Source: Oscillibacter sp. (GTDB lineage: Bacteria > Bacillota > Clostridia > Oscillospirales > Oscillospiraceae). From it: 47,554 bases of DNA. Below are positions 778-13,058 of the stretch, one piece after another; the first letter of the stretch is position 1; each line of letters opens with the position of its first letter. The position numbers and the translations under genes were made by a program. The notes under the pieces were generated by a model. It made no database searches and was not told the origin of the DNA. It saw only the letters and a list, made by a program, of their open reading frames with translations. Location of the stretch: NCBI GenBank assembly GCA_022797935.1, contig JAAWLO010000010.1, forward strand, positions 1-47,554. Direction: 5' to 3'.

Positions 778-786
778 GTTTCTGAG

Positions 787-811
787 CGCACCGCCTGTTG
801 AGGGCGGTGCG
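787..811 (+). other. hairpin in the array 1 leader
   Basis: CGCACCGCC (787-795) and GGCGGTGCG (803-811) form a perfect 9-base-pair stem with a 7-base loop, just before the ribosome site of the first gene. It lacks a T run and is absent from the array 2 leader. Confidence 0.6.
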
Positions 812-840
812 TGAACACTTTGGCAGGAGGTGTACCTCTC

Positions 841-987
841 ATGGAAGAAGGTGATGTGAGCATGACCGCTACGGAAGCTGCTCGCCTGATTGACTGGCTC
901 ATGAGCAACGGTCACACGGCAGATGAGGCTACCCAGTGTATCAAGTACATCGCTGGAACGCCGGCCCCGGCCAAGCCGGAAAAGTAA
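841..987 (+). CDS. small hypothetical protein, 48 aa
   Basis: First gene of array 1. ATG 841 follows AGGAGG at a spacing of 10; an in-frame ATG at 862 is an alternative. The protein has a helical middle (TATEAARLIDWLMSNGHTAD) and a proline/lysine-rich end. The family is not recognised. It is separated from the next gene by two large hairpins, so its transcript may be processed or stabilised apart from the rest. Confidence 0.6.
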   Translation: MEEGDVSMTATEAARLIDWLMSNGHTADEATQCIKYIAGTPAPAKPEK

Positions 988-990
988 AAA

Positions 991-1034
991 GTTAGGCTCC
1001 CCCTCAGCCGACCAAAGCACAAAGGGAGCCTAAC
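991..1034 (+). other. intercistronic hairpin 1
   Basis: GTTAGGCTCCC (991-1001) and GGGAGCCTAAC (1024-1034) form a perfect 11-base-pair stem with a 22-base loop directly after the first gene's stop. There is no T run, so it is not a typical terminator; mRNA processing, stability or attenuation are possible roles. Confidence 0.65.
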
Positions 1035-1040
1035 CCATAA

Positions 1041-1069
1041 GGCGGGACGGGACCTGCCCCCGTCTCGCC
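1041..1069 (+). other. intercistronic hairpin 2
   Basis: GGCGGGACGGG (1041-1051) pairs with CCCGTCTCGCC (1059-1069) with one mismatch and a 7-base loop. It lies 6 bases after hairpin 1, making a tandem stem-loop before the gene at 1128. Confidence 0.6.
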
Positions 1070-1127
1070 ACCTATGGTAACAGACGGGCAGGAGAAAGTC
1101 AAGGCCGAGAGGCCGGGAGGTAATGAT

Positions 1128-1424
1128 ATGAAGAGCAAGGTTTACAAGCTGGACGGCAAGCTGTTCCGCTACAACTTCGGCCGCTGCACGGTCGAGTACG
1201 TCGCCAAGGCCGGTAAGGATGAACTGAAGGATGAGGCCGAGTGGATGCAGAAGTACGGCGAGCCGCTGTTCGGCATCGACCACGACGGCTACATGGTGAT
1301 CGACAGCATCGGCCTGAGCCGGGAGAACTGGGAGAACCGCGAGGCCCGCGACAGCTACCTGTACGGCTGGGCGCAGGACTTGGATGCTGAGACCTCTGCG
1401 CTGGCGGCGGACTTCGTGAAGTAA
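1128..1424 (+). CDS. hypothetical protein, 98 aa
   Basis: ATG 1128 follows GGGAGG at a good distance; an upstream in-frame ATG at 1074 lies inside hairpin-rich sequence without a ribosome site and was not chosen. The product is a soluble mixed alpha/beta protein with a YNFGRCTVEYVAKAG segment and an acidic C-terminal half. It resembles small accessory proteins of clostridial mobile elements, but I cannot name a family. Confidence 0.75.
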   Translation: MKSKVYKLDGKLFRYNFGRCTVEYVAKAGKDELKDEAEWMQKYGEPLFGIDHDGYMVIDSIGLSRENWENREARDSYLYGWAQDLDAETSALAADFVK

Positions 1425-1461
1425 GAGCTGCCATATCTGGTGTGAGGGAGGTGAGCGTAAC

Positions 1462-1626
1462 ATGAAAAAATTCTATGCTGACATCTACCACACTCCGAGC
1501 AACACGCATATCACCATCGGCGAATACTCAGAGAAGGCTATTGAGGAGTCCATTGCAGCTTGCATCAAACAGAGAGAGTTTGATGCCGCAGAGTGCATCT
1601 GGACGGTGCATACTGAGGAAATCTGA
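1462..1626 (+). CDS. small hypothetical protein, 54 aa
   Basis: ATG 1462 follows GGGAGGTGAGCGTAAC, a strong ribosome site. The protein begins MKKFYADIYHTPSN and has two cysteines and an acidic end. No family recognised. It is followed by an 80-base structured gap before the next reading frame. Confidence 0.7.
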   Translation: MKKFYADIYHTPSNTHITIGEYSEKAIEESIAACIKQREFDAAECIWTVHTEEI

Positions 1627-1636
1627 ACAGCCGAAA

Positions 1637-1693
1637 CGGGCCGCAAGCCCGGCGCCGGGAACTGACCTACCCGGCCTGGTGATGGCAGGTCAG
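1637..1693 (+). other. structured intercistronic segment
   Basis: Three overlapping pairings are visible: CGGGC/GCCCG (1637-1651), a perfect palindrome CCCGGCGCCGGG (1648-1659), and CTGACCT (1662-1668) / AGGTCAG (1687-1693). The segment sits just before a 14-codon reading frame and has no T run. Confidence 0.45.
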
Positions 1694-1708
1694 AAGGGAG
1701 CAATAATT

Positions 1709-1753
1709 ATGGCAGTTATCACTGGCATCTATGGGAAACTGAGCAAGGAGTGA
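1709..1753 (+). CDS. possible 14-codon leader peptide
   Basis: ATG 1709 follows AAGGGAG at a good spacing and reads MAVITGIYGKLSKE before TGA. Its last codons contain the ribosome site (AAGGAG) of the gene at 1759, so translating it would affect start of the next gene. It could be a coupling or regulatory leader peptide, or a chance short frame. Confidence 0.4.
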   Translation: MAVITGIYGKLSKE

Positions 1754-1758
1754 GCGCA

Positions 1759-1974
1759 ATGGTGGTTTATGTAATCCAGTATCGTCCCTACAACGGCGCA
1801 GAATTGAAAGTGTACCAGGAAGCCTACCAGACACTGGAGTCGGCACATCGGTTCATTGAGAGCAGACCGAACCGCCCGGAAAAGGAGCCCTGCACCAACT
1901 TCCACTATCGCACCGAGACCGGCGAGGAGTACCACATCTCTGAGGTTTCAGTCCGAACCGAAATGGAGGTATAA
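1759..1974 (+). CDS. hypothetical protein, 71 aa, paralogue of the 3179 product
   Basis: ATG 1759 follows AAGGAGTGAGCGCA. The protein starts MVVYVIQYRPYNG and contains QEAYQTLESAHRFIESR, which matches QEAYSSLEAAQRFIESR in the protein encoded at 3179. The pattern is a first beta strand, a turn and a long helix. Function unknown; the two genes look like diverged duplicates within the array. Confidence 0.75.
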   Translation: MVVYVIQYRPYNGAELKVYQEAYQTLESAHRFIESRPNRPEKEPCTNFHYRTETGEEYHISEVSVRTEMEV

Positions 1975-1976
1975 GC

Positions 1977-2192
1977 ATGGGGATTGCTAAAGTGGTTTTT
2001 GGGAAAGCAGATTATCGCTATTTTGTGGACCTCGTGTGTGATGGGAAACACGACGGACCCTGCGGAAGCCAGCTCAATAAGAACTGTTCCTCTCGGAATT
2101 TGCTGTGTGGTGCTCCGTACAGAGAGTGCAAAAAGGTTGCTAAAGAAGCTGCCGCGAAGTATGGCGTTCCGCTTGAAACTGATTGGGATTGA
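1977..2192 (+). CDS. cysteine-rich hypothetical protein, 71 aa
   Basis: ATG 1977 follows GGAGG and lies 2 bases after the previous stop. Five cysteines are spread through the protein (in LVCDGKHDGPCG, NCSS, LLCG and RECKK), which could bind a metal, though no standard zinc-finger spacing is evident. A second reading frame at 1984-2253 overlaps it but has no ribosome site. Confidence 0.7.
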   Translation: MGIAKVVFGKADYRYFVDLVCDGKHDGPCGSQLNKNCSSRNLLCGAPYRECKKVAKEAAAKYGVPLETDWD

Positions 2193-2215
2193 ACACTTTG
2201 AAGGAGGATGGCGTG

Positions 2216-2464
2216 ATGAAAAACGAAAAGAAATGGCCCGATACTTCCGTTAAGGAAATCCGAGAGCTTTTGTCGAGATTTTCGCCCAAGAAAATCCTTG
2301 TAAATACCATTGAGCAGGAAGATGGAAGCCTTGCTCCATCCGAAGTCTGCGAAATGCACGTTGCGGATGTTGATGGTGAGATGTGCCTTCTCATTACTCC
2401 AAAGATTATTGCTATGGATTACTACAATGCGGAAGACCACATACCAGAGGAGGCACAGTTATGA
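2216..2464 (+). CDS. hypothetical protein, 82 aa
   Basis: ATG 2216 follows AAGGAGG at a spacing of 8; an in-frame upstream start at 2183 would overlap the previous gene without a ribosome site. The sequence is acidic overall, with IRELLSRFSPKKILVNTIEQ and a strand-rich C-terminus. Its stop overlaps the ATG of the next gene, implying coupled translation. No family recognised. Confidence 0.7.
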   Translation: MKNEKKWPDTSVKEIRELLSRFSPKKILVNTIEQEDGSLAPSEVCEMHVADVDGEMCLLITPKIIAMDYYNAEDHIPEEAQL

Positions 2465-2625
2465 CGCTTGAAATGACGGAGGACGCAGTGGTGGCCTTGG
2501 TAATTGTCTCTGGCTATCTATTCATCTTGGGCACCGGTGGCCTGATTGCCGACTTCGTATTTCCGCACATCCCGTTCATTCAGCGATTCCTGGATAGCCT
2601 CCCGGACTGGGAGGATGAATACTGA
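2461..2625 (+). CDS. small single-pass membrane protein, 54 aa
   Basis: ATG 2461 overlaps the previous stop by 4 bases (ATGA) and follows GAGGAGG. Residues about 9-33 (from VVALVIVSGYL to LIADFVF) form one hydrophobic segment, followed by an acidic tail ending DWEDEY. It is the only clear membrane protein of the array. Function unknown. Confidence 0.7.
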   Translation: MTLEMTEDAVVALVIVSGYLFILGTGGLIADFVFPHIPFIQRFLDSLPDWEDEY

Positions 2626-2639
2626 AAGGAGAAAAGACT

Positions 2640-2876
2640 ATGGCGAACATGAGCTACTGCAGGTTCCAGAATACCCGGCCTGATGTGGAGGACTGCCTGG
2701 ACGCCCTCCGGGACGAAAAGCGGCTGAGTACCGACGAGGCCAAGGCCGGCCGCTGGATGTTCGATGACATCCTGGACTTCTGCCGGGATATGGGCATCAT
2801 TGACAGCTATGATGCTGGGATGCTGGAGGCCCTCTTCGACGGCCTGACCGAGAAGGAGGATGATGACGATGAGTGA
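2640..2876 (+). CDS. acidic accessory protein, MANMSYCRFQNT family, 78 aa
   Basis: ATG 2640 follows AAAGGAG. The opening MANMSYCRFQNT is a signature I know from a widespread family of small uncharacterised proteins in phages, plasmids and integrative elements. The protein is very acidic and ends EKEDDDDE. Acidic small proteins can mimic DNA, but there is no direct evidence for that here. Its 3' end overlaps the next gene by 8 bases. Confidence 0.8.
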   Translation: MANMSYCRFQNTRPDVEDCLDALRDEKRLSTDEAKAGRWMFDDILDFCRDMGIIDSYDAGMLEALFDGLTEKEDDDDE

Positions 2877-3165
2877 TCCGTCTTTGATTCGGTGGTCCTT
2901 TTGGCCCAAAGTGGGCCCGGTCGAGTATGGCAAGATGCCCCGGAAGAAGATGCAGGAGAACCTCCAGCGGTTCGAGGTCGAGGCCCGGAAGCTGCTGGCT
3001 GAGACCGGTGCCGACCATGTGGTGTATGGTCGAAAGCTCTACACCGAGGACGGAGAGTTGGAGGAGATTCGCTTCTATCTGGTCCCGATGACCGATGAGG
3101 AGTTTGAGAAAAAGGTGGTGCCGCTGAAGAGTCAGCAGGTGTACGCCGTCCACAAGATGAAGTGA
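2869..3165 (+). CDS. hypothetical protein, 98 aa
   Basis: ATG 2869 follows GGAGG with 9 bases between and overlaps the previous stop. The protein starts MSDPSLIRWSFWPK and has a long central helix (KMQENLQRFEVEARKLLAE) and a charged C-terminus. No family recognised. Confidence 0.7.
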   Translation: MSDPSLIRWSFWPKVGPVEYGKMPRKKMQENLQRFEVEARKLLAETGADHVVYGRKLYTEDGELEEIRFYLVPMTDEEFEKKVVPLKSQQVYAVHKMK

Positions 3166-3178
3166 GGAGGAATGAGCT

Positions 3179-3568
3179 ATGCGAGTTTATGCGGTGGCGG
3201 TCCGCTTCGATGGTGAAGAGAAGCTGTCCCAGGAAGCGTACAGCAGCCTGGAAGCGGCTCAGCGGTTCATCGAGAGCCGGCGTCCCTGCCCGCAGAAAGT
3301 GCGGGAAATGCTCTACCAGGGCAGCGAAGGCCGTGAGTATCTCATCCACGACCTGCTGGTCCGCAAGGACGGAGAAGAGAAGACCTTCTGGCGGGTCTGC
3401 CAGAAATACTTCGATGATGGCAGGGTGTCCGTGAGCGTCTACTCCGTGAAGGCTGCCAAGAAGCCGGAGAGCACGTCGGTCGAGGGCAAGACCTTTGATG
3501 AGTACAATGACTACTTTGATACCCGTCAGGAAGCGGATGAGTGGGCTGAGAACGCCCGGAAAGCGTGA
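3179..3568 (+). CDS. hypothetical protein, 129 aa, paralogue of the 1759 product
   Basis: ATG 3179 follows GAGGAGG. Residues about 1-40 match the protein encoded at 1759, sharing the QEAYxxLExAxRFIESR core. The C-terminal half (EYLIHDLLVRKDGEE onwards) is longer and ends in a polar helical tail. Function unknown; duplication within the array is the main clue. Confidence 0.75.
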   Translation: MRVYAVAVRFDGEEKLSQEAYSSLEAAQRFIESRRPCPQKVREMLYQGSEGREYLIHDLLVRKDGEEKTFWRVCQKYFDDGRVSVSVYSVKAAKKPESTSVEGKTFDEYNDYFDTRQEADEWAENARKA

Positions 3569-3578
3569 GGTGATCTGC

Positions 3579-4118
3579 ATGGGACGCGGTAATGTCTGTG
3601 TTACTGGCGCCTATGAGGGCCTGTACTACATCGACAACGATGATTTCCATGTCTACCGCCGGGATGACCCGCGCGACGATGATGAGTTTGAGTCCCGGCT
3701 GCTGAAGGACCTCAGCTACCAGGAGCTCACCGGTGGCGAATGGTACTACTGCGAATCGGATACTGCGGAAGAAGAGGACAGCATCCTGGAGTACTTCGTC
3801 GAGGGCTTCACCAAGCTGTTTCCCGCCTTCCGCCGGCCGGAGCCCGCAGAGCTGCGCCTGAAAGATGAAGGCCGGGTCCTCCTGGAGAGCAAGCTGTTCT
3901 ATATCGCCCTGGAGGACAACGAGTGGTCGTTGGCCGTGAAGCTGCTTCAGAAGGAGGAGCCCTGGGACCTCCCGTGGATGGAGAATCTCCAGAAGAGGCT
4001 GTATGAGAAGTACCTGGAAGGCATGAAGCGATGTCTGCTGGAAGTCCTCCCCAGTATCGGTACCTACAAAGGGGCGTGGCAGTCCGGCAGAATTACAAGA
4101 GAGGAGATTTTGGTATGA
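3579..4118 (+). CDS. hypothetical protein, 179 aa
   Basis: ATG 3579 follows GTGAGGTGATC. The first half is acidic and aromatic (YYIDNDDFHVYRRDDPRDDDEF, shown in part), the second half is alpha-helical with WENLQKRLYEKYLEGMKR-like character. Its stop overlaps the next ATG. No family recognised. Confidence 0.7.
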   Translation: MGRGNVCVTGAYEGLYYIDNDDFHVYRRDDPRDDDEFESRLLKDLSYQELTGGEWYYCESDTAEEEDSILEYFVEGFTKLFPAFRRPEPAELRLKDEGRVLLESKLFYIALEDNEWSLAVKLLQKEEPWDLPWMENLQKRLYEKYLEGMKRCLLEVLPSIGTYKGAWQSGRITREEILV

Positions 4119-4492
4119 GCGAGAAGAAGTTCACGGTACGGGCTCAGATTGAGGTCAACCTGAGCCAGCAGGACATAGACAACATCATGGTGACAGCCCT
4201 GGAGGGTGGCATCAACTATTGGTGCCGCAAGGCCAAGGTGGTGGGTGAGTATCTGGGCGAGGCCGCCAGCGATCAGATTTCCCGCGGCGGGTCCCTCACC
4301 CTCTACGACGCCGAGAGCTCCGACAAGTGGGAGCTGACCCTGGAGAAGTTCCTGAATGGGGTGAAGCTCTACTTCGAGCAGGGCTGCCATGTGCAGGTTG
4401 AGGACAATGCCATCGAAACCGGCGACATCGACGCCGGCGACGCCGACTGCATCGTCCAGTTTGCGCTGTTTGGGGAGGTGGTGTTCGGATGA
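4115..4492 (+). CDS. hypothetical protein, 125 aa
   Basis: ATG 4115 overlaps the previous stop (ATGA) and follows GAGGAG. The N-terminus FTVRAQIEVNLSQQDIDNIMVTALEGGINYW-type pattern (strand, then helix with a WCR motif) recalls small proteins found in phages and ICEs of Clostridia. The end is acidic with repeated GDIDAGDAD. Function unknown. Confidence 0.75.
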   Translation: MSEKKFTVRAQIEVNLSQQDIDNIMVTALEGGINYWCRKAKVVGEYLGEAASDQISRGGSLTLYDAESSDKWELTLEKFLNGVKLYFEQGCHVQVEDNAIETGDIDAGDADCIVQFALFGEVVFG

Positions 4493-4971
4493 CTGCGCTG
4501 AAGAGCAAGGCGTTTGACACCGCCTATGGCCTGTATAACAGGGATGTCCTCAGCAGCTCCGACTATGAGGTGATCCGCGAGGGCCTGGAGGAAATCGAGA
4601 CCCTCCGGGACCGGGATGAGGCCCTGGAGGAAATGTGGAGGCAATTCGCCGATGTCCCGGTGGACCCAAAGACCGAGTGCATCGAAGAGCAGTTCTTCGG
4701 CTGGGGGTCGGGCGTCAGCCGGGAGGAAATCTGGCACTGGTTCGACCAGAGGCATAGCAAGGGCATCGCCTACCTGTTGTACGGGACAACCCCTGAGCCG
4801 GGTGCCACCATGCTGATGTATTACAAGTCCCTATGCGATAGTTGCGGAACCTCGGATTGCGTATACAACTGCGCCGGAGAGTGCCGCTACCCCATGGTGT
4901 TTCACCGAGTCCCTATTATCACTGACGAGAATGGATGCAGGCATTATGCCAGAAAGGAAGTTGATGACTAA
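4489..4971 (+). CDS. mobile-element accessory protein with cysteine-rich tail, 160 aa
   Basis: ATG 4489 overlaps the previous stop. Residues about 45-95 (DVPVDPKTECIEEQFFGW, then SREEIWHWFDQRHSKG and AYLLYG) match a common small protein of clostridial integrative elements, which usually ends soon after AYLLYG. Here about 60 more residues follow, with a CDSCGTSDCVYNCAGEC cluster that looks metal-binding. It may be a fusion of the common protein with a zinc-binding module. Function unknown. Confidence 0.75.
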   Translation: MTALKSKAFDTAYGLYNRDVLSSSDYEVIREGLEEIETLRDRDEALEEMWRQFADVPVDPKTECIEEQFFGWGSGVSREEIWHWFDQRHSKGIAYLLYGTTPEPGATMLMYYKSLCDSCGTSDCVYNCAGECRYPMVFHRVPIITDENGCRHYARKEVDD

Positions 4972-5452
4972 TATGCGGGAAGACAGGCCCATCAAAATGA
5001 CGGAACATGAGCGCATCAGATGTTCCGCCTGCCCTATGATGAAAATGAGCGGACGCGCAAGGTACACCGCAAACAATAGCCACATGGCACTTCCCAGGGG
5101 AGACTGCTTCTGCAAGCACCCGGACGCTCATTCCGCATTTGAGCTGATTTGCCCCCGTAGCCCCCGTGCGGCCTGCTTCATCGGATATACCAAAGGGAGC
5201 AGCGATAAGCCTGGCATCAAGACAGCTCCCAGGTGGTGCCCCCGGAAGATGGCGGTGAGGCCCATGGAGATCAGCAAGATTCAGGCGCTCCAGGTCATCG
5301 AAACGCGCAAGCCTCGCGGCCTGTTCTTCGTGGTGGGCCAGGTGGTTACCGGCATCGACAACCGAACCGGAGATGCCTGGACAGAGGACTTTGCAACAAA
5401 GCGCGAGTGCTTGAAGTGGCTGGAAGATTACAGTAGGGAAGGTGACACATGA
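4964..5452 (+). CDS. cysteine-rich hypothetical protein, 162 aa
   Basis: ATG 4964 (MTNMRED) overlaps the previous stop and lies just after AAGGAAG; ATG 4973 is an alternative. Residues 25-100 hold CSACP, GDCFCKHPDA, ICP, CFIG and WCP motifs, suggesting a small zinc domain. The C-terminal part (IETRKPRGLFFVVGQVV and on) looks like a separate beta-rich domain with a helix ending LKWLEDY. Not recognised. Confidence 0.7.
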   Translation: MTNMREDRPIKMTEHERIRCSACPMMKMSGRARYTANNSHMALPRGDCFCKHPDAHSAFELICPRSPRAACFIGYTKGSSDKPGIKTAPRWCPRKMAVRPMEISKIQALQVIETRKPRGLFFVVGQVVTGIDNRTGDAWTEDFATKRECLKWLEDYSREGDT

Positions 5453-5784
5453 AAAATCGAGTAACCGTTCTGCATGGTATGCTCCCTGATTTGAAGGAGT
5501 ACCTGAAAAAGAGCGGGTGGAAGCTGGAGCCGCCGTCTGGAGACTATGAGGTCCTGCGAGCCCGTCGTGCTGGATACCCCCGCCCGCTCCTCGTCCATGA
5601 CCGGGCATCCGGCGGCTGCGGATATAGCATCGACGAGAGGGACATGAAGGTGTATCAGGGCTGGCAGAGAAACCGCAGGCGGCGCGGCCTTGACCCGTAC
5701 TCTTATACCAGGGAAGAGTGGGAGGCATACTGGGCTGGAGTGACTTCCAGTAAGAAGAAAGGGGAAAAAGATGAAAGCGTCTGA
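5449..5784 (+). CDS. hypothetical protein, 111 aa
   Basis: ATG 5449 overlaps the previous stop by 4 bases. The product is basic, in contrast to most of the array, with a NRRRRGLDPYSYTREEWEAYW stretch and a lysine-rich end. It overlaps the following regulator gene by 14 bases, so the two are probably translated together. Function unknown. Confidence 0.7.
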   Translation: MKNRVTVLHGMLPDLKEYLKKSGWKLEPPSGDYEVLRARRAGYPRPLLVHDRASGGCGYSIDERDMKVYQGWQRNRRRRGLDPYSYTREEWEAYWAGVTSSKKKGEKDESV

Positions 5785-6244
5785 TATGGTGCGCTCCGCG
5801 CTGGCGAGCGCAGGCAAGACCCAGCGGGAGCTGGCCGAGTTCATGGGCTGGAGCCCGCAGAATCTCAGCGGCCGGCTGAAGAACGACACCCTGACCTTCG
5901 ATGAGCTGACCAAAGCCCTGAGCATGACCGGGTACACCGTGAAGATGGTCAGTGCCTCCGGCGTGGAGCTCCCCATGCTGGGGAACAGCAGCAGTCCGCG
6001 GGTGGTCCAGATGGTAGAGGGCGTTACCTATGACACCAGCAAAGCAGAGTCCCTCTGTTCCAGCCGGGATGAGGCTAACAAGGATTTTTATACGGAGCTC
6101 TTCAAAGACCCGTCAGGGGCCTATTTCGTGGTCCATTTCCAGCTCTGGGATGGCGGCTATAATTCCATATCCCCCATAAGTAAGGACGCATCTAAGCGGT
6201 TCTGGGCGCGTTACAGCGGCCTCCCGGAGAGCGAGATGAAGTAG
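5771..6244 (+). CDS. XRE-type helix-turn-helix protein with unknown C-terminal domain, 157 aa
   Basis: ATG 5771 follows AAAGGGG and overlaps the previous gene. Residues about 5-60 form an XRE-like HTH (KTQRELAEFMGWSPQNLSGR as the helix-turn-helix core). Residues 75-157 are a separate domain (ELFKDPSGAYFVVHFQLWDG) I do not recognise. It is the last gene of array 1, and a near-perfect operator copy begins 8 bases after its stop, so it is a natural candidate for the regulator of both array promoters. That link is inference; the true repressor could be encoded elsewhere on the element. Confidence 0.8.
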   Translation: MKASDMVRSALASAGKTQRELAEFMGWSPQNLSGRLKNDTLTFDELTKALSMTGYTVKMVSASGVELPMLGNSSSPRVVQMVEGVTYDTSKAESLCSSRDEANKDFYTELFKDPSGAYFVVHFQLWDGGYNSISPISKDASKRFWARYSGLPESEMK

Positions 6245-6251
6245 TCAGAGC

Positions 6252-6266
6252 TTTCCGTGTCGGTAA
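6252..6266. promoter_or_regulatory. operator copy after the HTH gene
   Basis: TTTCCG-TGT-CGGTAA matches the array operator at 14 of 15 positions. It lies 8 bases after the HTH gene's stop and 134 bases before the array 2 operator, and no promoter boxes flank it. It may be a looping or auxiliary site. Confidence 0.6.
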
Positions 6267-6343
6267 GTTTTGCGAAGCTGTGCGTATTTTCTGAAAAAGC
6301 CACGCAGCTCCTTCAAAAGTGCTGGAAATCAAGCGTTTTGAGG

Positions 6344-6369
6344 ATAGCAAAAAATATTTTGCTATTTTT
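6344..6369 (+). other. AT-rich hairpin before the array 2 promoter
   Basis: ATAGCAAAA (6344-6352) and TTTTGCTAT (6357-6365) form a 9-base-pair AT-rich stem followed by TTTTC. It could be a weak terminator for array 1, or only an A/T tract acting as UP element for the promoter at 6380. Confidence 0.4.
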
Positions 6370-6379
6370 CATTTTTGAC

Positions 6380-6408
6380 TTGACATTACCGTGTCGGTAA
6401 GTTAGAAT
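6380..6408 (+). promoter_or_regulatory. promoter of small-gene array 2
   Basis: TTGACA (6380-6385), a 17-base spacer and TAGAAT (6403-6408). From ATTTTTGACTTGACA to TTAGAATG the sequence is identical to the array 1 promoter. Confidence 0.85.
6386..6400. promoter_or_regulatory. operator in the promoter spacer of array 2
   Basis: TTACCG-TGT-CGGTAA, the same perfect palindrome in the same place as at 726-740. Confidence 0.8.
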
Positions 6409-6427
6409 GTGAGCATGATAAATAACT

Positions 6428-6442
6428 TATCCAAGACGGTCA
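6428..6442. promoter_or_regulatory. conserved leader site of array 2
   Basis: TATCCA-AGA-CGGTCA lies 42 bases after the start of the perfect operator. It shares CCAAGACGGTCAGTTT (6431-6446) with the array 1 leader. Role unknown: weak operator or RNA element. Confidence 0.45.
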
Positions 6443-6463
6443 GTTTTTGAAGGAGGATGCACC

Positions 6464-6670
6464 ATGAAAGAGAAGCTCGAAAGCCTGAGTTGGTTCGGTC
6501 GCTTGGAAGACCTTACCGAAGAGCTGGAGGATATGGGCCTGGAGGTCCTGGAAGCCAACTGTGAGTATGTTGTGGTCGGCTATGAGGAAGACGGCGATGA
6601 TATTCAGCTCATCCTGCACCTGGGCGGAACCGCCCGCACCATCATCATCACCAACGTCGAGGAAGCCTGA
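6464..6670 (+). CDS. acidic hypothetical protein, 68 aa
   Basis: First gene of array 2. ATG 6464 follows AAGGAGG. The protein is strongly acidic (FGRLEDLTEELEDMGLEV, YEEDGDD) and predicted as helix then beta strands ending IIITNVEEA. No family recognised; its size and charge would fit a DNA- or protein-mimic, but that is speculation. Confidence 0.75.
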   Translation: MKEKLESLSWFGRLEDLTEELEDMGLEVLEANCEYVVVGYEEDGDDIQLILHLGGTARTIIITNVEEA

Positions 6671-6682
6671 AAGGAGAACGAC

Positions 6683-7228
6683 ATGAGCAGCAAGTATGAC
6701 AAAATCAAGACGGCCGCCGAGCTGGTGGCTGAAGTTCAGGTCCATGGCCTTAGCACGGCCCAGGAAGACATCTGCCGGGCCCAGGACATCTTCGGCCACA
6801 CCGCGATTGAGGAGCTGGCCTGCCTCGCCAACGACACCGGCATGAACAACGCCCAGGGTGAGCCGGACCCGAAGGGGACCTGGAGCAGCGGCCGGAAGGC
6901 CACGCGAGGCACGTTCTACGCAATCGCTTCCTCCATCTGGAACTGGGAGGAAGTGACCCGGTTCTGGAACCAGCACACGAACCCGGAGCGGGAGGAACTG
7001 CTGAATCTGCGGAGCTCTTGCAAGGTTCTGGAGCAGGAAGTATCGGAGAAGTCCGAGGAGGTTGCCAAGGAGCACGACCTCCGGCTGACGGAGACCTACG
7101 AAAAGCTGAAGCTGAAGGAGGAAGCCGAGAGGCTTGGGGCTGAGCTCCACGACCGGGACATGAGCATCTTGGAGCTGAAGGCCAAGCTGTATGACCTGAT
7201 GGTCGAGGGGAAGGGAGGGGAGCAGTAA
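6683..7228 (+). CDS. hypothetical protein with coiled-coil C-terminus, 181 aa
   Basis: ATG 6683 follows AAAGGAG. Residues 1-100 look globular (helices, an IWNWEEVTRFWNQHTNPE segment). Residues about 105-175 are a heptad-rich coiled coil (LEQEVSEKSEEVAKEHDLRL). Its stop overlaps the next start by one base. Function unknown; the coiled coil suggests oligomer formation. Confidence 0.75.
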   Translation: MSSKYDKIKTAAELVAEVQVHGLSTAQEDICRAQDIFGHTAIEELACLANDTGMNNAQGEPDPKGTWSSGRKATRGTFYAIASSIWNWEEVTRFWNQHTNPEREELLNLRSSCKVLEQEVSEKSEEVAKEHDLRLTETYEKLKLKEEAERLGAELHDRDMSILELKAKLYDLMVEGKGGEQ

Positions 7229-7506
7229 TGACTGTTCGTGAGCATATGGCGGCTGCCGGATATAACCTGGCCTCCGCCTGGGAGCCGGAGAGCATCCGGC
7301 CCGAAGCTGGTACGATGGAGTGCGAGCGGGTCGAAATCAAGACCTTCCGTTGCCGCCCCACCTGCTATGAGGAGATGCTGGGCGTGAAGGCGACGGCAAT
7401 CACCAGGTACTCCGACGGCTGCGAGCGTCCGTACCCGGACGGCTGGCCGGGGAGTATGGCTGCCAGTATCACCGCCTACTTCCACATTGAGAAGGAGGCG
7501 AGCTGA
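7228..7506 (+). CDS. hypothetical protein, 92 aa
   Basis: ATG 7228 shares its A with the previous TAA and follows GGAGGGG. Cysteines occur in MECER, FRCRPTCYEE and GCERP. The last A of its TGA begins the next ATG. No family recognised. Confidence 0.7.
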   Translation: MTVREHMAAAGYNLASAWEPESIRPEAGTMECERVEIKTFRCRPTCYEEMLGVKATAITRYSDGCERPYPDGWPGSMAASITAYFHIEKEAS

Positions 7507-7661
7507 TGAAGGAGTTCACCGTGAAGGTCACAGCCGTGACTACCCTGACCGTCGAGGCCGAGTCCGAGGACGAGGCCATCGACAAGGCTTGCGATACAGC
7601 CTGGGAATACGACGCCGATGAGAAGACCGGCGAGATTTTGGAGGTGGGCAACAATGCCTGA
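7506..7661 (+). CDS. small hypothetical protein, 51 aa
   Basis: ATG 7506 follows AAGGAGG and overlaps the previous stop (TGATG). It starts MKEFTVKVTAVTTLTVEAES and has EDEAIDKA, a strand-strand-helix layout common in small phage and mobile-element proteins. Function unknown. Confidence 0.7.
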   Translation: MKEFTVKVTAVTTLTVEAESEDEAIDKACDTAWEYDADEKTGEILEVGNNA

Positions 7662-7890
7662 AAGAGAATGGAAGCTCGGAGAAGACCTGCTGACCAGCGA
7701 CAGTCTGCTGGACGGTCTGACCTTCGATGACCTGATTCTGGCGGTTCACTGTAACTGCCACAGCATCACCCCGGAGGCGGTCCGGGCTGAGCTGAAGGAG
7801 GTGCTGGAGAGCCGGAAGCAGGATATGATGTTCCTGCTGGAGAAGAACATGGATGCAATCATGGCTGAGGCCAGAAAGGGGAGAGAATGA
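7654..7890 (+). CDS. hypothetical protein, 78 aa
   Basis: ATG 7654 overlaps the previous gene by 8 bases and follows GGAGG. The protein is helical and acidic (LTSDSLLDGLTFDDLILAV, EAVRAELKEVLESRK). Its stop overlaps the next start. No family recognised. Confidence 0.7.
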   Translation: MPEREWKLGEDLLTSDSLLDGLTFDDLILAVHCNCHSITPEAVRAELKEVLESRKQDMMFLLEKNMDAIMAEARKGRE

Positions 7891-8267
7891 TGACGCTGCA
7901 TGAGGCTATCGGTGTCCGGGTGGACACCGACATCAAGACTGGGGAGAAGTTGACCCACTCTGAAATCTACGGGAGGGCTATTGAGTTCCTTGGCGGGCTG
8001 GACGAGGTGGCCCGGTTCGTTCCGTTCCCGGTGGAAACCCTCCGCAAGAAGCTGAAAAGCGACCCGTTCCTGAACAACACGGCAATGAGCCGGTGGGAAG
8101 CTGCATCCGGGTTCGTTTGCCGCAGGGGAGACTGCAAGTACATCGGAGGCGGAATCTGGTCGCTGTACCGTCAGCACGGAATTAACGCCGCCAGTGCATC
8201 GGACGGCGTATCACTCTTGAAAGAAGCTGCCCGACGGTTGGTTGAGAGAGAGGAGGCTGCGAAGTGA
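7887..8267 (+). CDS. hypothetical protein, 126 aa, possible HTH-like
   Basis: ATG 7887 overlaps the previous stop. The central part (DEVARFVPFPVETLRKKLKS, LNNTAMSRWEAASGF) has the look of a small helical DNA-binding or phage-type domain, and the C-terminus (GIWSLYRQHGINAASASDGV) is a segment seen in small mobile-element proteins. No named family; the DNA-binding idea is weak. Confidence 0.7.
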   Translation: MMTLHEAIGVRVDTDIKTGEKLTHSEIYGRAIEFLGGLDEVARFVPFPVETLRKKLKSDPFLNNTAMSRWEAASGFVCRRGDCKYIGGGIWSLYRQHGINAASASDGVSLLKEAARRLVEREEAAK

Positions 8268-9028
8268 AGACTCTGTATTTTGAAGGCGCTGGCTGGAGCG
8301 ACGCCGACATCAGCAAGGCAACCATCGGCAACTGCCGCATCCGTACCGCCTTCCATCTCGATGATGGAAGGGCGGTGTACCTGGAAATCACCGGAACAGA
8401 GCGGACAAAGCATAGCAGCCCTCAGATTTTCCAGTGGCAGTACACCGGCTTTGTGGATTACTGCCACTATATTACGGATGACAAGCCGAACGACGATTGC
8501 AACAAGCACCATGTCATGCTGCCTAAGAAACGTGGCTCAAAACGCGGCACGGTCGAGAAAAACGCACGTTTCGAGTACACAGAGGCGGAAATCCTGCGTC
8601 TCGTGAATAGTCTTGGAGCCAGCTTCGACGCCGTGAAGGTGGTTCCAGACCTCGGCGGCTACCGTGTGTTCCCGGAAGACCATTCCTGCGACGGACCAGA
8701 TGGCTACAACTACGGCGACGAGTTTCAGTTTGATTCCGAGATGACCGCCCGCCGTGAGGCTGTCTACAAATGGGTCTATGACCTGGAGGCCAGAGAGCTG
8801 AAGGAGGACCGAGCCAATGGAGAGAAGAGGTTCGTCCATTCCCCGTCCGGGGCCGACTTCCCGAACTTCTCCCTGTGGGTAGACCGTAACGCCCCTGGCC
8901 TCCTGCATCTGCTCCGCCACTTCAGAGGCTACAACAAACACTGGACCATCAGGACGGATGCCGGAGATACCCTGGAGGACTGCCTGGAAACGCTGCAGGA
9001 AGCTCACCTCGGAAAGCACGGATGCTGA
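8264..9028 (+). CDS. hypothetical protein, 254 aa, largest of the arrays
   Basis: GTG 8264 follows GAGGAGG and overlaps the previous stop by 4 bases. The N-terminal about 100 residues are beta-rich with a YCHYITDDKPNDDCNKHH patch rich in Cys, His and Asp that could bind metal. The middle is acidic and the C-terminus helical. I do not recognise a family or a catalytic motif. As the largest array protein it is a good starting point for structure comparison. Confidence 0.75.
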   Translation: MKTLYFEGAGWSDADISKATIGNCRIRTAFHLDDGRAVYLEITGTERTKHSSPQIFQWQYTGFVDYCHYITDDKPNDDCNKHHVMLPKKRGSKRGTVEKNARFEYTEAEILRLVNSLGASFDAVKVVPDLGGYRVFPEDHSCDGPDGYNYGDEFQFDSEMTARREAVYKWVYDLEARELKEDRANGEKRFVHSPSGADFPNFSLWVDRNAPGLLHLLRHFRGYNKHWTIRTDAGDTLEDCLETLQEAHLGKHGC

Positions 9029-9042
9029 GGAGGTAAGCTGAT

Positions 9043-9201
9043 ATGAAAGTGTATATCGTAACCGGCAGTTGCCGTGACGACCACCACATCATCGCTGTAT
9101 GCAAAACCCCAGAGCTGGCAGAAGACCGCTGTACGGCTGAGAACCGAAAGTGCCGTGGTCTGAACGCCACTTTCGAGGAATGGAACGTAGATGAGAGGTG
9201 A
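9043..9201 (+). CDS. small hypothetical protein, 52 aa
   Basis: ATG 9043 follows GAGGAGGTAAGCTGAT. MKVYIVTGSC with a following helix (TPELAEDRCTAEN) recalls the strand-helix layout of the proteins at 1759 and 3179, but identity is too low to claim common origin. Three cysteines. Function unknown. Confidence 0.65.
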   Translation: MKVYIVTGSCRDDHHIIAVCKTPELAEDRCTAENRKCRGLNATFEEWNVDER

Positions 9202-9205
9202 TCTG

Positions 9206-9394
9206 ATGTTCAAGCTGGAAATCAAGACCGTCGGAGCGGCGTTCCGGGATGATAATGGAGAGGGCCTGGACCCCTACACCACGGAGGTGCGCCGTATTCT
9301 GTTGGATGTCATCTGTGAGCTGGAGGCTGGGCGTACCGACGGTCCCGTCATGGATGTGAACGGCAACAAGGTCGGCCGCTGGAGCTACAAGTGA
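9206..9394 (+). CDS. small hypothetical protein, 62 aa
   Basis: ATG 9206 follows GAGAGGTGATC 4 bases after the previous stop. The middle helix (TTEVRRILLDVICELEAG) and the end (GPVMDVNGNKVGRWSYK) are typical of a small uncharacterised mobile-element protein. Last gene before a 158-base gap. Confidence 0.7.
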   Translation: MFKLEIKTVGAAFRDDNGEGLDPYTTEVRRILLDVICELEAGRTDGPVMDVNGNKVGRWSYK

Positions 9395-9405
9395 TGTTGA
9401 AATAA

Positions 9406-9432
9406 GCCCGTCTAAGCCTCTACAAGACGGGC
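9406..9432 (+). other. hairpin closing the 6464-9394 gene block
   Basis: GCCCGTCT (9406-9413) and AGACGGGC (9425-9432) form a perfect 8-base-pair stem with an 11-base loop. No T run follows, so termination is doubtful. The 12-mer CCCGTCTAAGCC in its left arm is also at 325-336. The rest of the gap (9433-9552) shows no clear promoter; TATAAG at 9530 lacks a -35 box. Confidence 0.5.
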
Positions 9433-9552
9433 CCGCCCGCAGACTACTTACACCATTCGCGGACAGAAAAGGACGCTCCAAGAGGCTCTCAGGCGGTCCC
9501 TATGCAGGGTCCAGAGAAATATTTAACAAAGTATAAGATTGGAGGGAAACAG

Positions 9553-9996
9553 ATGACTGGTGCGCAAAGTCTCCTCTGCGAGATGCTGTCCTGCGGCAGC
9601 GCAGACCTGGAGATTCTCGACCGTATCGGTTACGGGTGGGATGAGATTCTTGACCAGATGGATTGGCCCCGTGAGGGCCTCGACTTCAACGATGTTTTGA
9701 GAGCGGCCGTCAGCGTCGGCATCATCAACATAAAAGAGGCTATCAGCGAAAGGACGTTCCTGCTGGAAGCGACTCAAGGTATCCATGGGAAACTGGAGCC
9801 AGAGAAGGCTGAAGAGCTGGAAGCCCTGCGTGACCTGCACCCGGACGATGACATTGAGGGAGACTTCAACTTCCTTGCCACGCACGTCTGGTTTAAGAGC
9901 AACGGACCGGCCTACCGCCGGTATCTGCCGGAGGCCGTAGACAACTTTGAGGACAATGTGGGTTTTTTCCTGACCGGAGGTGAAGGCGATGACTGA
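9553..9996 (+). CDS. acidic hypothetical protein, 147 aa
   Basis: ATG 9553 follows TTGGAGGG; an in-frame ATG at 9502 has no ribosome site and was not chosen. The protein is acidic, mostly helical (DWPREGLDFNDVLRAAVSVG) and ends TGGEGDD. It opens the last block of the element, probably on the array 2 transcript. Function unknown. Confidence 0.7.
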   Translation: MTGAQSLLCEMLSCGSADLEILDRIGYGWDEILDQMDWPREGLDFNDVLRAAVSVGIINIKEAISERTFLLEATQGIHGKLEPEKAEELEALRDLHPDDDIEGDFNFLATHVWFKSNGPAYRRYLPEAVDNFEDNVGFFLTGGEGDD

Positions 9997-10522
9997 AATA
10001 AAGAAAGCTGAGAACCTGGTGGCCGTCTCGGTCCGCCAGGGCCTCCAGATGAATCTGGTGGAAGCTGACATCGTGCTGGGCTACATAGAGGGACATGGCT
10101 TTGCCCTGATGTCCGATGAGAAGTTCCAGATGGCTCTGCACGATACCGAAGAGGAGGAGCAGTACGGATACAGCACGGACCAGCCCTACACTATCCGGGA
10201 GGTGGTCGAGTTCTGCCAGAAGATGAATGAGGAGCTGCTGAGGGATGCTTCCAGCGAGGAACCCTGCGACAAGAGCCATATCCTTGACCTTCGGAAAGAT
10301 GACCTCATCCTGAGCGGGCTCGTGGAGAGAGCTACTGCGGTGATACCGCCAGTGATCCGCCGGTACAAAATCGTTATCCTGGAGCACCTGAAGCGCGTGG
10401 TCCATGTGGAGGCCGCGAGCTGGGAGGAGGCCAAGTCAAAGGTGGAGCAGGCGTGGAAGGCTGGGGAGTATGTCCTGAGCGCCGAAGACTTCGCCGGGGT
10501 GAGCTTCAACACCGGAAGCTGA
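9989..10522 (+). CDS. hypothetical protein, 177 aa
   Basis: ATG 9989 follows GGAGG and overlaps the previous stop by 8 bases; the GTG at 9980 is a weaker choice. Residues 1-110 are helical and acidic; the C-terminal about 55 residues (YKIVILEHLKRVVHVEAAS onwards) look like a small strand-helix domain of the type seen in short phage proteins. Possibly a fusion of two small proteins. No named family. Confidence 0.7.
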   Translation: MTEIKKAENLVAVSVRQGLQMNLVEADIVLGYIEGHGFALMSDEKFQMALHDTEEEEQYGYSTDQPYTIREVVEFCQKMNEELLRDASSEEPCDKSHILDLRKDDLILSGLVERATAVIPPVIRRYKIVILEHLKRVVHVEAASWEEAKSKVEQAWKAGEYVLSAEDFAGVSFNTGS

Positions 10523-10533
10523 GGAGGAAAACG

Positions 10534-10788
10534 ATGGATAGAAATGCTGAGTTTGAGTTCATGGTATCCTTCGCCACGCAGAGCTGCTTCGACGAGGACA
10601 TCTGCCGCGACCGCTTCAGGATGCTGTGGACGGCGTACTGCCTCCACTACGACCTCGACGTGGATACCGCCAGCTATGACAGCTACATCCGGGAGCTGTG
10701 GAAGGCCGTGGCCGCGGACGAGGAGGATACAGCCGACTGGTCCGACTTCGACAGCTTCGGCAACTTCATGTGCCGGTATCTGGTGTGA
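10534..10788 (+). CDS. acidic hypothetical protein, 84 aa
   Basis: ATG 10534 follows GAGGAGG. The protein is acidic, rich in tryptophan, tyrosine and aspartate (AADEEDTADWSDFDSFGNF) and has three cysteines. No family recognised. Confidence 0.7.
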   Translation: MDRNAEFEFMVSFATQSCFDEDICRDRFRMLWTAYCLHYDLDVDTASYDSYIRELWKAVAADEEDTADWSDFDSFGNFMCRYLV

Positions 10789-10796
10789 GGTGTGTC

Positions 10797-11153
10797 ATGG
10801 GAAAGAAAAACGACTACCTGGCCCGCCAAGAGGAAAAGAAGCGAATGCTCCAGGATGCCACTAGACAGACCTTCGTGCAGTACATGACGGATACCCTCAT
10901 CTTCACACTGAACGACCCGGAGGTCATGGGCAAGGACGTGTTCGGCTATGCTCGGCTGAAGAAAGTGCTGGATGCCTGGGGGCAGTATTATGACCAGTTC
11001 TTCGACGCCCTGACGCTGAACCCGGAGGCCGACTATTCCAGGGCTAAAATGGATGAGGCCCTGAAGCGAATCTGCGGCGATAGTGGAGATTTTATCCCAT
11101 TTGAGCAGCGGTATGACTGGCTGCCGGAAATCCGGTATGGTCATAAGCGGTAG
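10797..11153 (+). CDS. hypothetical protein, 118 aa
   Basis: ATG 10797 follows GTGAGGTG; the in-frame start at 10698 lies inside the previous gene. It starts with a basic patch (MGKKNDYLARQEEKKR), followed by a helical body (TRQTFVQYMTDTLIFTLND) that resembles small mobile-element proteins I cannot name. Confidence 0.7.
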   Translation: MGKKNDYLARQEEKKRMLQDATRQTFVQYMTDTLIFTLNDPEVMGKDVFGYARLKKVLDAWGQYYDQFFDALTLNPEADYSRAKMDEALKRICGDSGDFIPFEQRYDWLPEIRYGHKR

Positions 11154-11191
11154 CTCCTGCTGAATACTCTGTGAGAGGGAGGTGGGGCCAT

Positions 11192-11401
11192 GTGGCGAAG
11201 AAACAGGAGATACGGACGGTATCCTTCGTACATATCGGAGATGAGCTGGTGAACACTGATGACCTGGACGACGATCAGCGCCGCAGGCTGGCGACATGGC
11301 TGAAGACTACCTACCTAAACACGCTGTTCCAGGGGAAGGCCGAGTTCTTCGAGAGTAGCGGGGAAGGGGATTGCCAAGGTCGACGCCGTGGTGTAAAATA
11401 G
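11192..11401 (+). CDS. hypothetical protein, 69 aa, last gene of the element
   Basis: GTG 11192 follows GGGAGG at a spacing of 9 and reads MAKKQEIRTVSF. An overlapping ATG at 11190 in another frame gives only 20 codons. The N-terminal layout (VHIGDELVNTDDLDDDQRRRLATWL, shown in part) resembles small end-of-element proteins of clostridial ICEs. The tail (SSGEGDCQGRRRGVK) looks out of character, so a frameshift near 11350 is possible. Confidence 0.55.
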   Translation: MAKKQEIRTVSFVHIGDELVNTDDLDDDQRRRLATWLKTTYLNTLFQGKAEFFESSGEGDCQGRRRGVK

Positions 11402-11403
11402 CG

Positions 11404-11434
11404 AAAGCCGGAGCAAAACCGCTCCGGCTTTTTC
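11404..11434 (+). terminator. terminator at the element's right end
   Basis: AAAGCCGGAGC (11404-11414) and GCTCCGGCTTT (11421-11431) form a perfect 11-base-pair stem with a 6-base loop, then TTTTT. It stops the small-gene transcript just before the cotJC junction. Confidence 0.9.
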
Positions 11435-11446
11435 GTAGTCTAATGG

Positions 11447-11464
11447 AGTAAGGTCCTCCGTACT
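11447..11464. other. probable attachment junction in cotJC
   Basis: Arms AGTAAGG (11447-11453) and CCGTACT (11458-11464) form an imperfect inverted repeat (6 of 7) around TCCT, exactly where the cotJC frame leaves the conserved QYGGP motif. This is the layout expected of a serine-recombinase core site, with one arm from the element and one from cotJC. The exact crossover cannot be fixed without the left junction. Confidence 0.55.
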
Positions 11465-11546
11465 GGGAGATAATCACCGCCGCCAGCTTGGGATTGGGAT
11501 TCTTGATCTTTACCGGATATTGCAATTTTTTCTCATAGACAAACAT
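11451..11546 (-). pseudogene. cotJC: cotJC 5' fragment, interrupted by the element
   Basis: ATG 11546 overlaps the cotJAB stop by one base (TAATG). It reads MFVYEKKLQYPVKIKNPNPK, then AAVIISQYGGP, which matches the start of spore coat protein CotJC, a manganese-catalase-like protein. The frame then enters element sequence (YSIRLRKS...) and stops at 11307, so only 32 of the roughly 190 usual residues are native. The remaining 3' part should lie at the far end of the element. If the element excises in the mother cell the gene could be restored. Confidence 0.85.
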
Positions 11547-11998
11547 TACTCATTCCCTCCTACATCCCAGGGCCACGGGTCTTTCAGCCAGGCATAGCCA
11601 TCTTCTGGAGTCAGATCCGTTTGGAGAATGGGGCCGTACATCTTCTCGTACTTCGCGCGTCCCTCTTGGGAGAGTTTGATATAGGACCAATAAAGCTGCA
11701 AAACCTCCTGATCTTGGGGATGCGTCGTCAAATACAACCCCAGCTCATCGACGGCGAAATCCAGAGCCATCAGCTCTACCAGGGCGGTGTTGGCCAGCTT
11801 CGTCCGGGCCTGAATGGCCGCTTTAAAAGGCAGGTCCAGTCCGGGGAAAAGGGTACCAGTCTGAAGGGCCTCCGCACGGCTGAACCGAGCCGGATTCTGT
11901 TCCTGCATGGGGATATATGGAAACGCCAGCGGTGCGCAGGCGCCAGGGAGCGTTCCGCTTCCTGTGCCGCAGCTGCCCGCCTGATCGGGTTTTTCCAT
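11546..11998 (-). CDS. fused spore coat proteins CotJA-CotJB, 150 aa
   Basis: ATG 11998 (MEKPDQ) follows AAAGGAGG; the upstream in-frame start at 12025 lacks one. Residues about 20-62 are CotJA-like (LAFPYIPMQEQNP, then FSRAEALQTGTLFPGLDLPF). Residues about 70-150 are CotJB-like (MALDFAVDELGLYLTTHP, YEKMYGPILQTDLTPEDGY, WLKDPWPWD). In Bacillus subtilis these are separate genes of the cotJABC operon. The single continuous frame has no internal stop. It acts in the spore coat, in the mother cell, followed by the broken cotJC. Confidence 0.85.
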   Translation of the reverse strand: MEKPDQAGSCGTGSGTLPGACAPLAFPYIPMQEQNPARFSRAEALQTGTLFPGLDLPFKAAIQARTKLANTALVELMALDFAVDELGLYLTTHPQDQEVLQLYWSYIKLSQEGRAKYEKMYGPILQTDLTPEDGYAWLKDPWPWDVGGNE

Positions 11999-12116
11999 TG
12001 CGCATAAACCTCCTTTTGTATACAAAAGCTCTCTTCGGAAAACAAAATAGGGAACTCAGCAGCCGGAGTTTGAGCTTTTGTTCGGAATGAAATTGCGCGT
12101 TTCTCACACGCATTCC

Positions 12117-12124
12117 ATTGTATG
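12117..12124 (-). promoter_or_regulatory. possible SigE -10 box for cotJ
   Basis: CATACAAT on the minus strand equals the SigE -10 consensus, about 120 bases before the cotJAB start. No convincing SigE -35 box is found 13-15 bases upstream. cotJ is SigE-dependent in B. subtilis, which makes the site plausible. Confidence 0.4.
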
Positions 12125-12183
12125 CTGTCGGAGAAGAAGCCGCTACTTGCCAGCAGAAAGTGGAATATTCGTTCGAATAATAC

Positions 12184-12212
12184 TTGCTTTTTTTCAAGAA
12201 GAACCGTATAAT
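12184..12212 (+). promoter_or_regulatory. SigA-type promoter of cwlD-radA
   Basis: TTGCTT (12184-12189), 17 bases, TATAAT (12207-12212). It leaves about 115 bases of leader before the GTG of cwlD. Confidence 0.7.
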
Positions 12213-12332
12213 AGGGAATATGGGATAAGCTGGCTGCCATATTCTTTGTCTAGAGTTCTGTTGGAAAACCGAGGAAGCTCTCCATATTTCTCTGGTTTTT
12301 CAATCGAATCAAACGACGAGGAGGCGCCGACT

Positions 12333-13058
12333 GTGATTATTCTTTTGCGGAAACGTACTCTGTTGCTCTCCGGCATTTTCTGCTGTTTTTTTGCTGCATT
12401 GGCCACGGTATTTTGGAAAGGAACTGTTGTTCCGGCTTTTTCAGTCAGGGAGGAGTTTCCACCTGTCACCGTAGTCATTGATCCTGGCCACGGCGGTGAG
12501 GACGGCGGGGCGGTATCCTCCGGAGGCGTTGCCGAGAGTCAAATCAATCTGGCAGTATCCCTGCGTCTTAACGATCTGCTGCGCTTCGCCGGGCGGCGGA
12601 CCGTTCTGACCAGAGTTGAGGATGTAACCATCTGTGATCCGGGATTAGAAACCATGCGCCAACGAAAGAGCTCAGATCTGAAAAACCGGGTACGTTTGGT
12701 GGAGGAAACCGAAAACGCATGGCTGCTGAGCATTCACCAGAATAGTCTGCCTTCCTCTCCCGTGACACACGGGGCCCAAGTCTTCTGGAACCGGCAGGAG
12801 GGGGCAGAAGTGCTGGCTGAAGCCGTTCAGACAGCGCTGAATGGCGGTATCAATGCGGGAAACGAAAAACATCCCCGGCAAATTCCAGACAGCATCTACC
12901 TGATGAAGCAGATCACCGTCCCAGGCATTTTGGTGGAATGCGGTTTTCTTTCCAATTCGGCGGAAACCGAATCCCTTCAGGAGCCAACGTATCAGCTGCG
13001 TCTGGCGGCTGCAGTAGCCGCTGGAGTTTTGAGTGCTGGGTCTCTTGAAAATACGTAA
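12333..13058 (+). CDS. cwlD: N-acetylmuramoyl-L-alanine amidase CwlD-like, 241 aa
   Basis: GTG 12333 follows GAGGAGG at 8 bases; the frame is open back to 12078 but that part lacks homology. Residues 1-30 are a signal anchor. The Amidase_3 domain follows, with the zinc histidine in VVIDPGHGGEDGGA, IHQN (second His) and a late glutamate in GILVECGFLSN. CwlD cleaves stem peptides from muramic acid, a first step to muramic delta-lactam in spore cortex. It precedes radA by 14 bases, so both are probably co-transcribed. Another Amidase_3 hydrolase is the alternative. Confidence 0.85.
   Translation: MIILLRKRTLLLSGIFCCFFAALATVFWKGTVVPAFSVREEFPPVTVVIDPGHGGEDGGAVSSGGVAESQINLAVSLRLNDLLRFAGRRTVLTRVEDVTICDPGLETMRQRKSSDLKNRVRLVEETENAWLLSIHQNSLPSSPVTHGAQVFWNRQEGAEVLAEAVQTALNGGINAGNEKHPRQIPDSIYLMKQITVPGILVECGFLSNSAETESLQEPTYQLRLAAAVAAGVLSAGSLENT

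Follow-up and report, generated by a model that had tools for sequence, protein, structure and literature searches.

Is a spore coat gene that breaks off after 32 codons a dead gene, or one half of a gene that can be rejoined? This question is raised by an Oscillibacter sp. contig of 47,554 nucleotides, the window of this analysis, which is the complete contig C39 of a draft genome (2.69 Mb, 158 contigs, 84% complete). On its minus strand, cotJC starts at ATG 11546 and passes into foreign DNA after codon 32. This had been claimed from the sequence alone, and it was confirmed by the match with the Mn_catalase profile (Table 1) as well as by a tblastn alignment with the intact cotJC of a relative (L007), in which residues 1–32 are 91% identical and the alignment stops at 11451. 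The upstream cotJAB had also been described as intact, and indeed CotJA and CotJB both lie above the Pfam cut-off in one frame. CotJA and CotJB form a single ORF in the window; the same fusion is present in all four relatives aligned. We consider it probable that a phage-like element, belonging to the large serine recombinase (LSR) family of the first of four insertion sites, splits cotJC in the window, and that its precise excision restores the gene in the mother cell when it is needed.

Table 1. Positions of features in the window and, in the last two rows, of the divided spoIVA of the related genome G065.
Feature	Position	Strand	Remarks
Right-hand portion of mobile element	1..11450	.	Phage-like, many small plus-strand ORFs; contig starts within the element, whose left end thus lies beyond it
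Last element ORF before junction	11171..11401	+	76 aa; homolog at the same element end in L124
attP arm of site-1 LSR family (element side of attL)	11430..11450	-	Matrix score, window left out of matrix
cotJC 5′ part	11451..11546	-	Codons 1–32 (MFVYEKK...QYGGP), in frame, without stop; Pfam PF05067 (Mn_catalase), residues 1–32 matching profile positions 1–32 of 284, E 6.4e-08, 32.4 bits (cut-off 27), no match beyond
Site-1 core GGAGGACC	11452..11459	-	cotJC codons 30–32
cotJAB	11546..12025	-	Position of the whole ORF, cotJAB being read as 11546..11998; Pfam CotJA 8.8e-12, CotJB 4e-24; intact; overlaps cotJC start
ORF, presumably amidase-like	12078..13058	+	Host side, divergent from cotJAB; from ORF list
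spoIVA	23368..24834	-	Intact; TIGR02836, 711 bits
G065 spoIVA pieces	L269 6444-5242; L270 3858-3577	-	
G065 LSR ORF	L270 3849-5519	-	At start of the spoIVA 3′ piece

The sequence-only reading took an imperfect inverted repeat as the mark of the junction. Such a repeat is present; it is the place where the conserved host core GGAGGACC meets the attP arm of the element, and core and arm mark the junction better than the repeat does. A weight matrix built from 17 arms of other genomes ranked the arm of the window first of 95,068 positions (24.4 bits, runner-up 13.1). After the nearest relative, G101, had been dropped as well, the scores were 23.5 versus 13.5 bits. The matrix excluded the window, a duplicate of G074, both arms of G107, G039 and the right arms of G008 and G003. 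Among the relatives, the pattern GGNGGNCC flanks the element on both sides in seven of eight site-1 attL/attR pairs. Core and arm thus place a mobile element in cotJC at a defined recombination core, as had been supposed. A draft assembly of 158 contigs might nevertheless contain a chimera in which a phage contig was fused to a host contig. We set this explanation aside as extremely improbable, since the stretch 11155–11460, which spans the junction, is matched at 81% in L124, an independent genome where the junction falls at the same cotJC codon and the element end is similar, since the junction bears the attP arm of the family, and since contiguous assemblies have the same arrangement (in G236 and G239, the two cotJC halves flank an LSR element, which measures 8.6 kb in the former and 16 kb in the latter).

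The content of the element was examined by profile and protein searches. A PHROG scan of 25 window ORFs returned 13 families, mostly of unknown function and including three regulator families, and Pfam matches of the element ORFs were DpnD/PcfM-like, a TPR domain and helix-turn-helix. The 25 window ORFs used as queries against relatives and viral contigs included two in a wrong frame; the viral contig L228 matches 11 of the 25 at 41–93% identity. No near match of the first 12.5 kb of the window was found in the phage collection. The product of the last ORF before the junction is 87% identical in L124 and 49% identical in L127. Altogether, two element proteins of L124 are 84–87% identical to those of the window, but the host proteins CotJAB and RadA only 58% and 74%, which indicates movement between hosts; four more element proteins share 32–59% identity, so the element is a mosaic. 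Occurrence of this element type in the distant host L124 fits ordinary lysogeny, as does the 41-kb site-1 element of G103, which carries a phage gene set with matches to terminase, tail and endolysin. According to this explanation, conserved cotJC segments would merely serve as attB, and cotJC would be a dispensable gene, switched off in lysogens and regained only upon induction and loss of the element, without any link to spore development. In the light of the small elements and the constraint on the gene pieces described below, we regard it as unlikely, though deserving serious attention.

A family search of the whole 84%-complete assembly found no second part of cotJC. No LSR ORF was found inside the window, and a site-1 LSR query returned from the assembly only weak matches to other recombinases (best 33% identity). 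The lack of a 3′ part and of a site-1-type LSR in this assembly counts against our main reading and favors simple decay, in which the 5′ piece would be a relic left after the insertion. The gene we take to be ligA was also not found in this assembly; it is present in 10 of 10 other genomes tested. Since it adjoins cotJC or lies up to about 10 kb away in some relatives and is on a different contig in others, ligA is a weak marker of the missing region, and the joint absence of ligA and the cotJC 3′ part weakly supports an incomplete assembly. Because the assembly lacks ligA too, the absence of the 3′ part is poor evidence of gene loss. Moreover, the 32-codon piece is uninterrupted and typical, which also speaks against decay. 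The intact spoIVA of the window is a sign that the host carries sporulation genes; a search for sigK in the same genome gave a top TIGR02846 match of 282 bits, which is below the cut-off.

The sequence-only reading had proposed a comparison with related genomes, and intact cotJC copies do exist there, next to many broken ones. In the genus, the cotJC family is present in 69 of 86 genomes, three of which carry a longer paralog alone (read from profile spans), leaving 66 genomes with cotJC. The gene is broken in 36 of these 66 at one or more of four fixed places, near codons 30–32, 62–64, 134–136 and 173–175 (sites 1 to 4): in 33 genomes at sites 1–3 (six with one piece only, among them the genome of the window) and in three at site 4 only (two checked by sequence). 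It is intact in 29 genomes, of which G040, G042 and G047 have an extra partial copy, and broken at another place in G069. Similarly, 80 named loci were fetched via CotJAB alignment, many from records titled Oscillibacter, Dysosmobacter or Oscillospiraceae and with species overlapping the genus set; one is without cotJC, and 37 of the other 79 are split (42 intact, 36 split, and L112 read as a site-1 split). At order level, the family was found in 120 of 147 genomes, at least 38 of which show fragments starting or ending at the same places, paralogs being pooled in. The contiguous assemblies G236 and G239 are further examples of such breaks in the order. That cotJC is an integration hot spot in this group is close to certain.

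Several genomes are occupied more than once. G008 carries elements at sites 1, 2 and 4, while sites 2 and 3 are both occupied in G021, G024 and G073, and one of sites 1–3 is combined with site 4 in G002, G052, G054 and G072 (in G095 by profile span only). Where both ends of the site-4 break are in hand, they lie 8.3 kb (G072) and about 19.5 kb (G040) apart. Two arrangements deviate: in O. valericigenes Sjm18-20 (L146/L104), the cotJC halves have opposite orientation about 10 kb apart, and in G189 (C1; L272, L273), they are separated by 675 kb on one contig; in both, an LSR adjoins the 3′ part. An ORF resembling the presumed amidase-like ORF next to cotJAB in the window also adjoins cotJAB in O. 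valericigenes L146, as judged by eye. The 24-base windows at the four sites rank in the top 3.5 to 22% and the 48-base windows give a p of 0.07, weakly supporting the notion that the sites are the most conserved DNA of cotJC. All four sites also seem to lie no more than about six codons away from a codon for a metal ligand, a proximity recognized only in hindsight.

Nine full-length site-1 LSR ORFs are found 0–61 bases from the junction. A tree was built from 45 LSR rows out of 58 distinct ones, those below 430 residues being left out. In it, the LSRs of site 1 (9), site 3 (6) and site 4 (4) form one clade each with 100% ultrafast bootstrap, and those of site 2 form two (14 and 5 rows). At least five clades, therefore, target cotJC, with site labels given by a distance of at most 2,300 bases (L142 by hand at 4.5 kb), some long branches flagged and deep joins unsure. 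The LSR is truncated in G107, and G062 has none. The closest match of a site-1 LSR in phage records is 46%. Among viral contigs, L236 and L237 contain a complete attP, with both arms around GGTGGCCC, adjoining an LSR which is 61–62% identical to a site-1 LSR. These are 2 of 31 viral LSR loci, the next candidate scoring below zero. The DNA pattern of the attP arm of the window itself found no match in the viral contigs. Separately from L236 and L237, a cotJC part follows the LSR in 6 of the 31 viral LSR loci, and in L245 and L246 the cotJC part ends at site 2.

The pieces of a split gene should be joinable if excision is precise. In-register comparison of attL and attR in 21 pairs gave longest common runs of 2 to 21 bases, with GGTAC recurring among the site-2 pairs and GCAGCAGA among those of site 3; no convincing core appeared in five of the 21 (G008, G046, G052, G054 and G099; 2–3 bases). 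We joined the pieces in a chosen subset of 25 split genomes; in 15 of these a single contig holds both halves, and in the other 10 they are found on different contigs. With the join point placed by hand inside the core, exactly 198 codons resulted in 19 of 25 (a looser script tally gave 23 of 25). The other six genes end differently and carry or suggest a further break at site 4. All five metal-ligand positions, mapped by alignment with PDB 1jku using what we take to be its ligand residue numbers, are kept in all 25 joined genes. The sequence-only reading had looked to a 3′ part beside an integrase gene with a core shared by both ends, and in the relatives the 3′ part and an LSR at the junction are present, in most cases together with a shared core, and the joined pieces give an uninterrupted frame. 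Its interpretation as an excisable element in a sporulation gene is, therefore, partly supported.

Split pieces are as constrained as intact cotJC. The pN/pS values of split versus intact genes in four segments are 0.153/0.163, 0.090/0.084, 0.225/0.217 and 0.117/0.129 (from matches of at least 60% identity and segments free of gaps and N), although the constraint may partly predate the insertions, since synonymous differences are large (pS 0.59–0.78). None of the 174 split-piece segments contains a stop. Outside these segments, two listed 3′ pieces do (G092 C9 and G129 C13); with these two exceptions, the stops, frameshifts and relaxed constraint of a decaying pseudogene were not seen in the pieces. 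The two stop-bearing pieces and the five core-less pairs count against our main reading, and the former, together with the damaged cases G107 and G062, are what decay would produce. Nevertheless, pieces in relatives are under the same constraint as intact genes, and simple decay was set aside as very improbable. The same constraint argues against lysogeny with a dispensable cotJC.

Further evidence bearing on lysogeny comes from small elements. In elements of 3.5–13 kb, small for a tailed phage, the LSR ORFs are still long and the gene pieces free of interruption. Such elements at sites 2 and 3 carry genes for RecQ, two-component systems, sugar uptake with amylase, an alanine symporter, Fic or relaxase. 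The cargo of those in L139, L138, L110, L141 and L039 comprises a sugar PTS with amylase, a two-component system, RecQ, a relaxase and Fic. When ten ORFs from five small elements were scanned with Pfam, the matches of nine were to named non-phage families and the tenth matched only domains of unknown function, which is not what lysogeny would lead one to expect. A second sporulation gene, spoIVA, served as control. It was detected in 80 of the 86 genus genomes and is split beside an LSR in one of the 80: in G065, its two pieces are on different contigs and away from contig ends, with the break between residues 398 and 401 (Table 1). Other incomplete spoIVA matches sit at contig ends. This similar hit on spoIVA likewise speaks against ordinary lysogeny.

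In the mechanism we propose for developmental excision, the site-1 LSR would join attP to attB inside codons 30–32 of cotJC, and the coat catalase could, therefore, not be made while the element stays. The same LSR, with a putative directionality factor, would remove the element precisely and restore the gene. If this takes place in the mother cell, the dividing line would keep the element and spores would still get CotJC; an element leaving only there loses nothing, because the genome of the mother cell is discarded. At the level of sequence, the split, the core with its attP arm, site-linked LSRs, a restorable frame, constraint and viral attP sites point to this mechanism. We infer both that excision occurs in this strain and that it is timed to the stage at which the mother cell requires the cotJ operon. 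The timing is suggested by the known class of such elements (skin, SP-beta, gin and yin), by the small elements keeping their LSR and by the spoIVA case. Developmental excision of cotJC elements is, in our view, likely.

Some observations count against a developmental role. Upstream of 34 LSR ORFs scanned, no enrichment of a sporulation-type promoter was found, which would fit lysogeny. A sigma-E-like motif occurs in 1 of 34 LSR upstream regions, 9 of 556 random and 1 of 26 cotJAB upstream regions; this motif has little power, since even cotJAB is preceded by it only once in 26. Corresponding counts are 2 of 34, 16 of 556 and 10 of 26 for the −10 element alone, and 1 of 34, 12 of 556 and 5 of 26 for a sigma-K-like motif. 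Besides this null result, the LSR defects of G107 and G062, the orientation in O. valericigenes and the 675-kb distance in G189 speak against developmental excision. In O. valericigenes, recombination of attL with attR is predicted to invert about 10 kb with cotJAB rather than to excise, yet it would restore cotJC. According to the part of PMC3558957 consulted, this species is reported as non-sporulating though sporulation sigma factors are present. Lysogeny further gains from the portion of PMC3533761 in which the catalase activity of CotJC is apparently unimportant for coat assembly, and from PMC10083194, where, in the sections used, convergence of diverse LSRs on one conserved target gene is already known.

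Split cotJC is a real, recurrent case of a known type of system. The comparisons that follow refer to the sections consulted of the papers cited. In skin of Bacillus subtilis and Clostridioides difficile, the mother-cell gene sigK is split, and precise excision by a serine recombinase restores its frame (PMC4191935, PMC10747680). The cotJC elements resemble skin in splitting a sporulation gene, with a serine recombinase and a join that would restore the frame, both seen in relatives; they differ in the gene concerned, in having four sites and several LSR lineages, and in that their excision is predicted from sequence. SP-beta is similarly a phage that has a serine recombinase and occupies a spore-envelope gene, spsM (PMC4191935), whereas in cotJC up to three elements occupy one gene. 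The gin element in gerE is a non-phage island (PMC5595907) and in this resembles those small cotJC elements that carry cargo of other kinds, and yin occupies a sporulation protease gene, yabG (PMC10747680). For both gin and yin, a single site in a single strain is described in these papers, in contrast to cotJC, where the case recurs over many genera. Among the LSR families of PMC10083194, many enzymes likewise converge on the same conserved target within a protein gene; the cotJC case differs in that several LSR lineages use four sites of one gene, and the sections consulted do not name cotJC or a catalase. In C. difficile R20291, prophage phi027 adjoins a complete manganese-catalase gene related to cotJC, as described in part of PMC11222575. 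No description of a split cotJC was found in the open-access PMC literature searched.

The splits of sporulation genes in the sections cited are single examples in single genes, while cotJC is repeatedly hit at four places, by at least five recombinase clades and in many genera of bacteria common in the gut. The question why such elements are drawn to mother-cell genes thereby becomes open to testing. The case also supplies recombinases together with their matching attB and attP sites, and it cautions against reading every split cotJC in these genomes as a dead gene. More tentatively, and with somewhat less than even confidence, we suggest that cotJC could be a developmental switch throughout the order: several LSR lineages would use its four sites with up to three stacked elements, all of which each sporulating mother cell would have to cut out before the enzyme can be made, non-phage islands with metabolic cargo would likewise reside in a gene for which growing cells have no use, and spoIVA would be at the start of the same course. 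Finally, in G003, the contigs C70 and C23 (L045 and L046) both stop within two bases of the cotJC core and lack sequence of an element, the pattern expected if the sample contained a mixture of element-bearing and empty forms.
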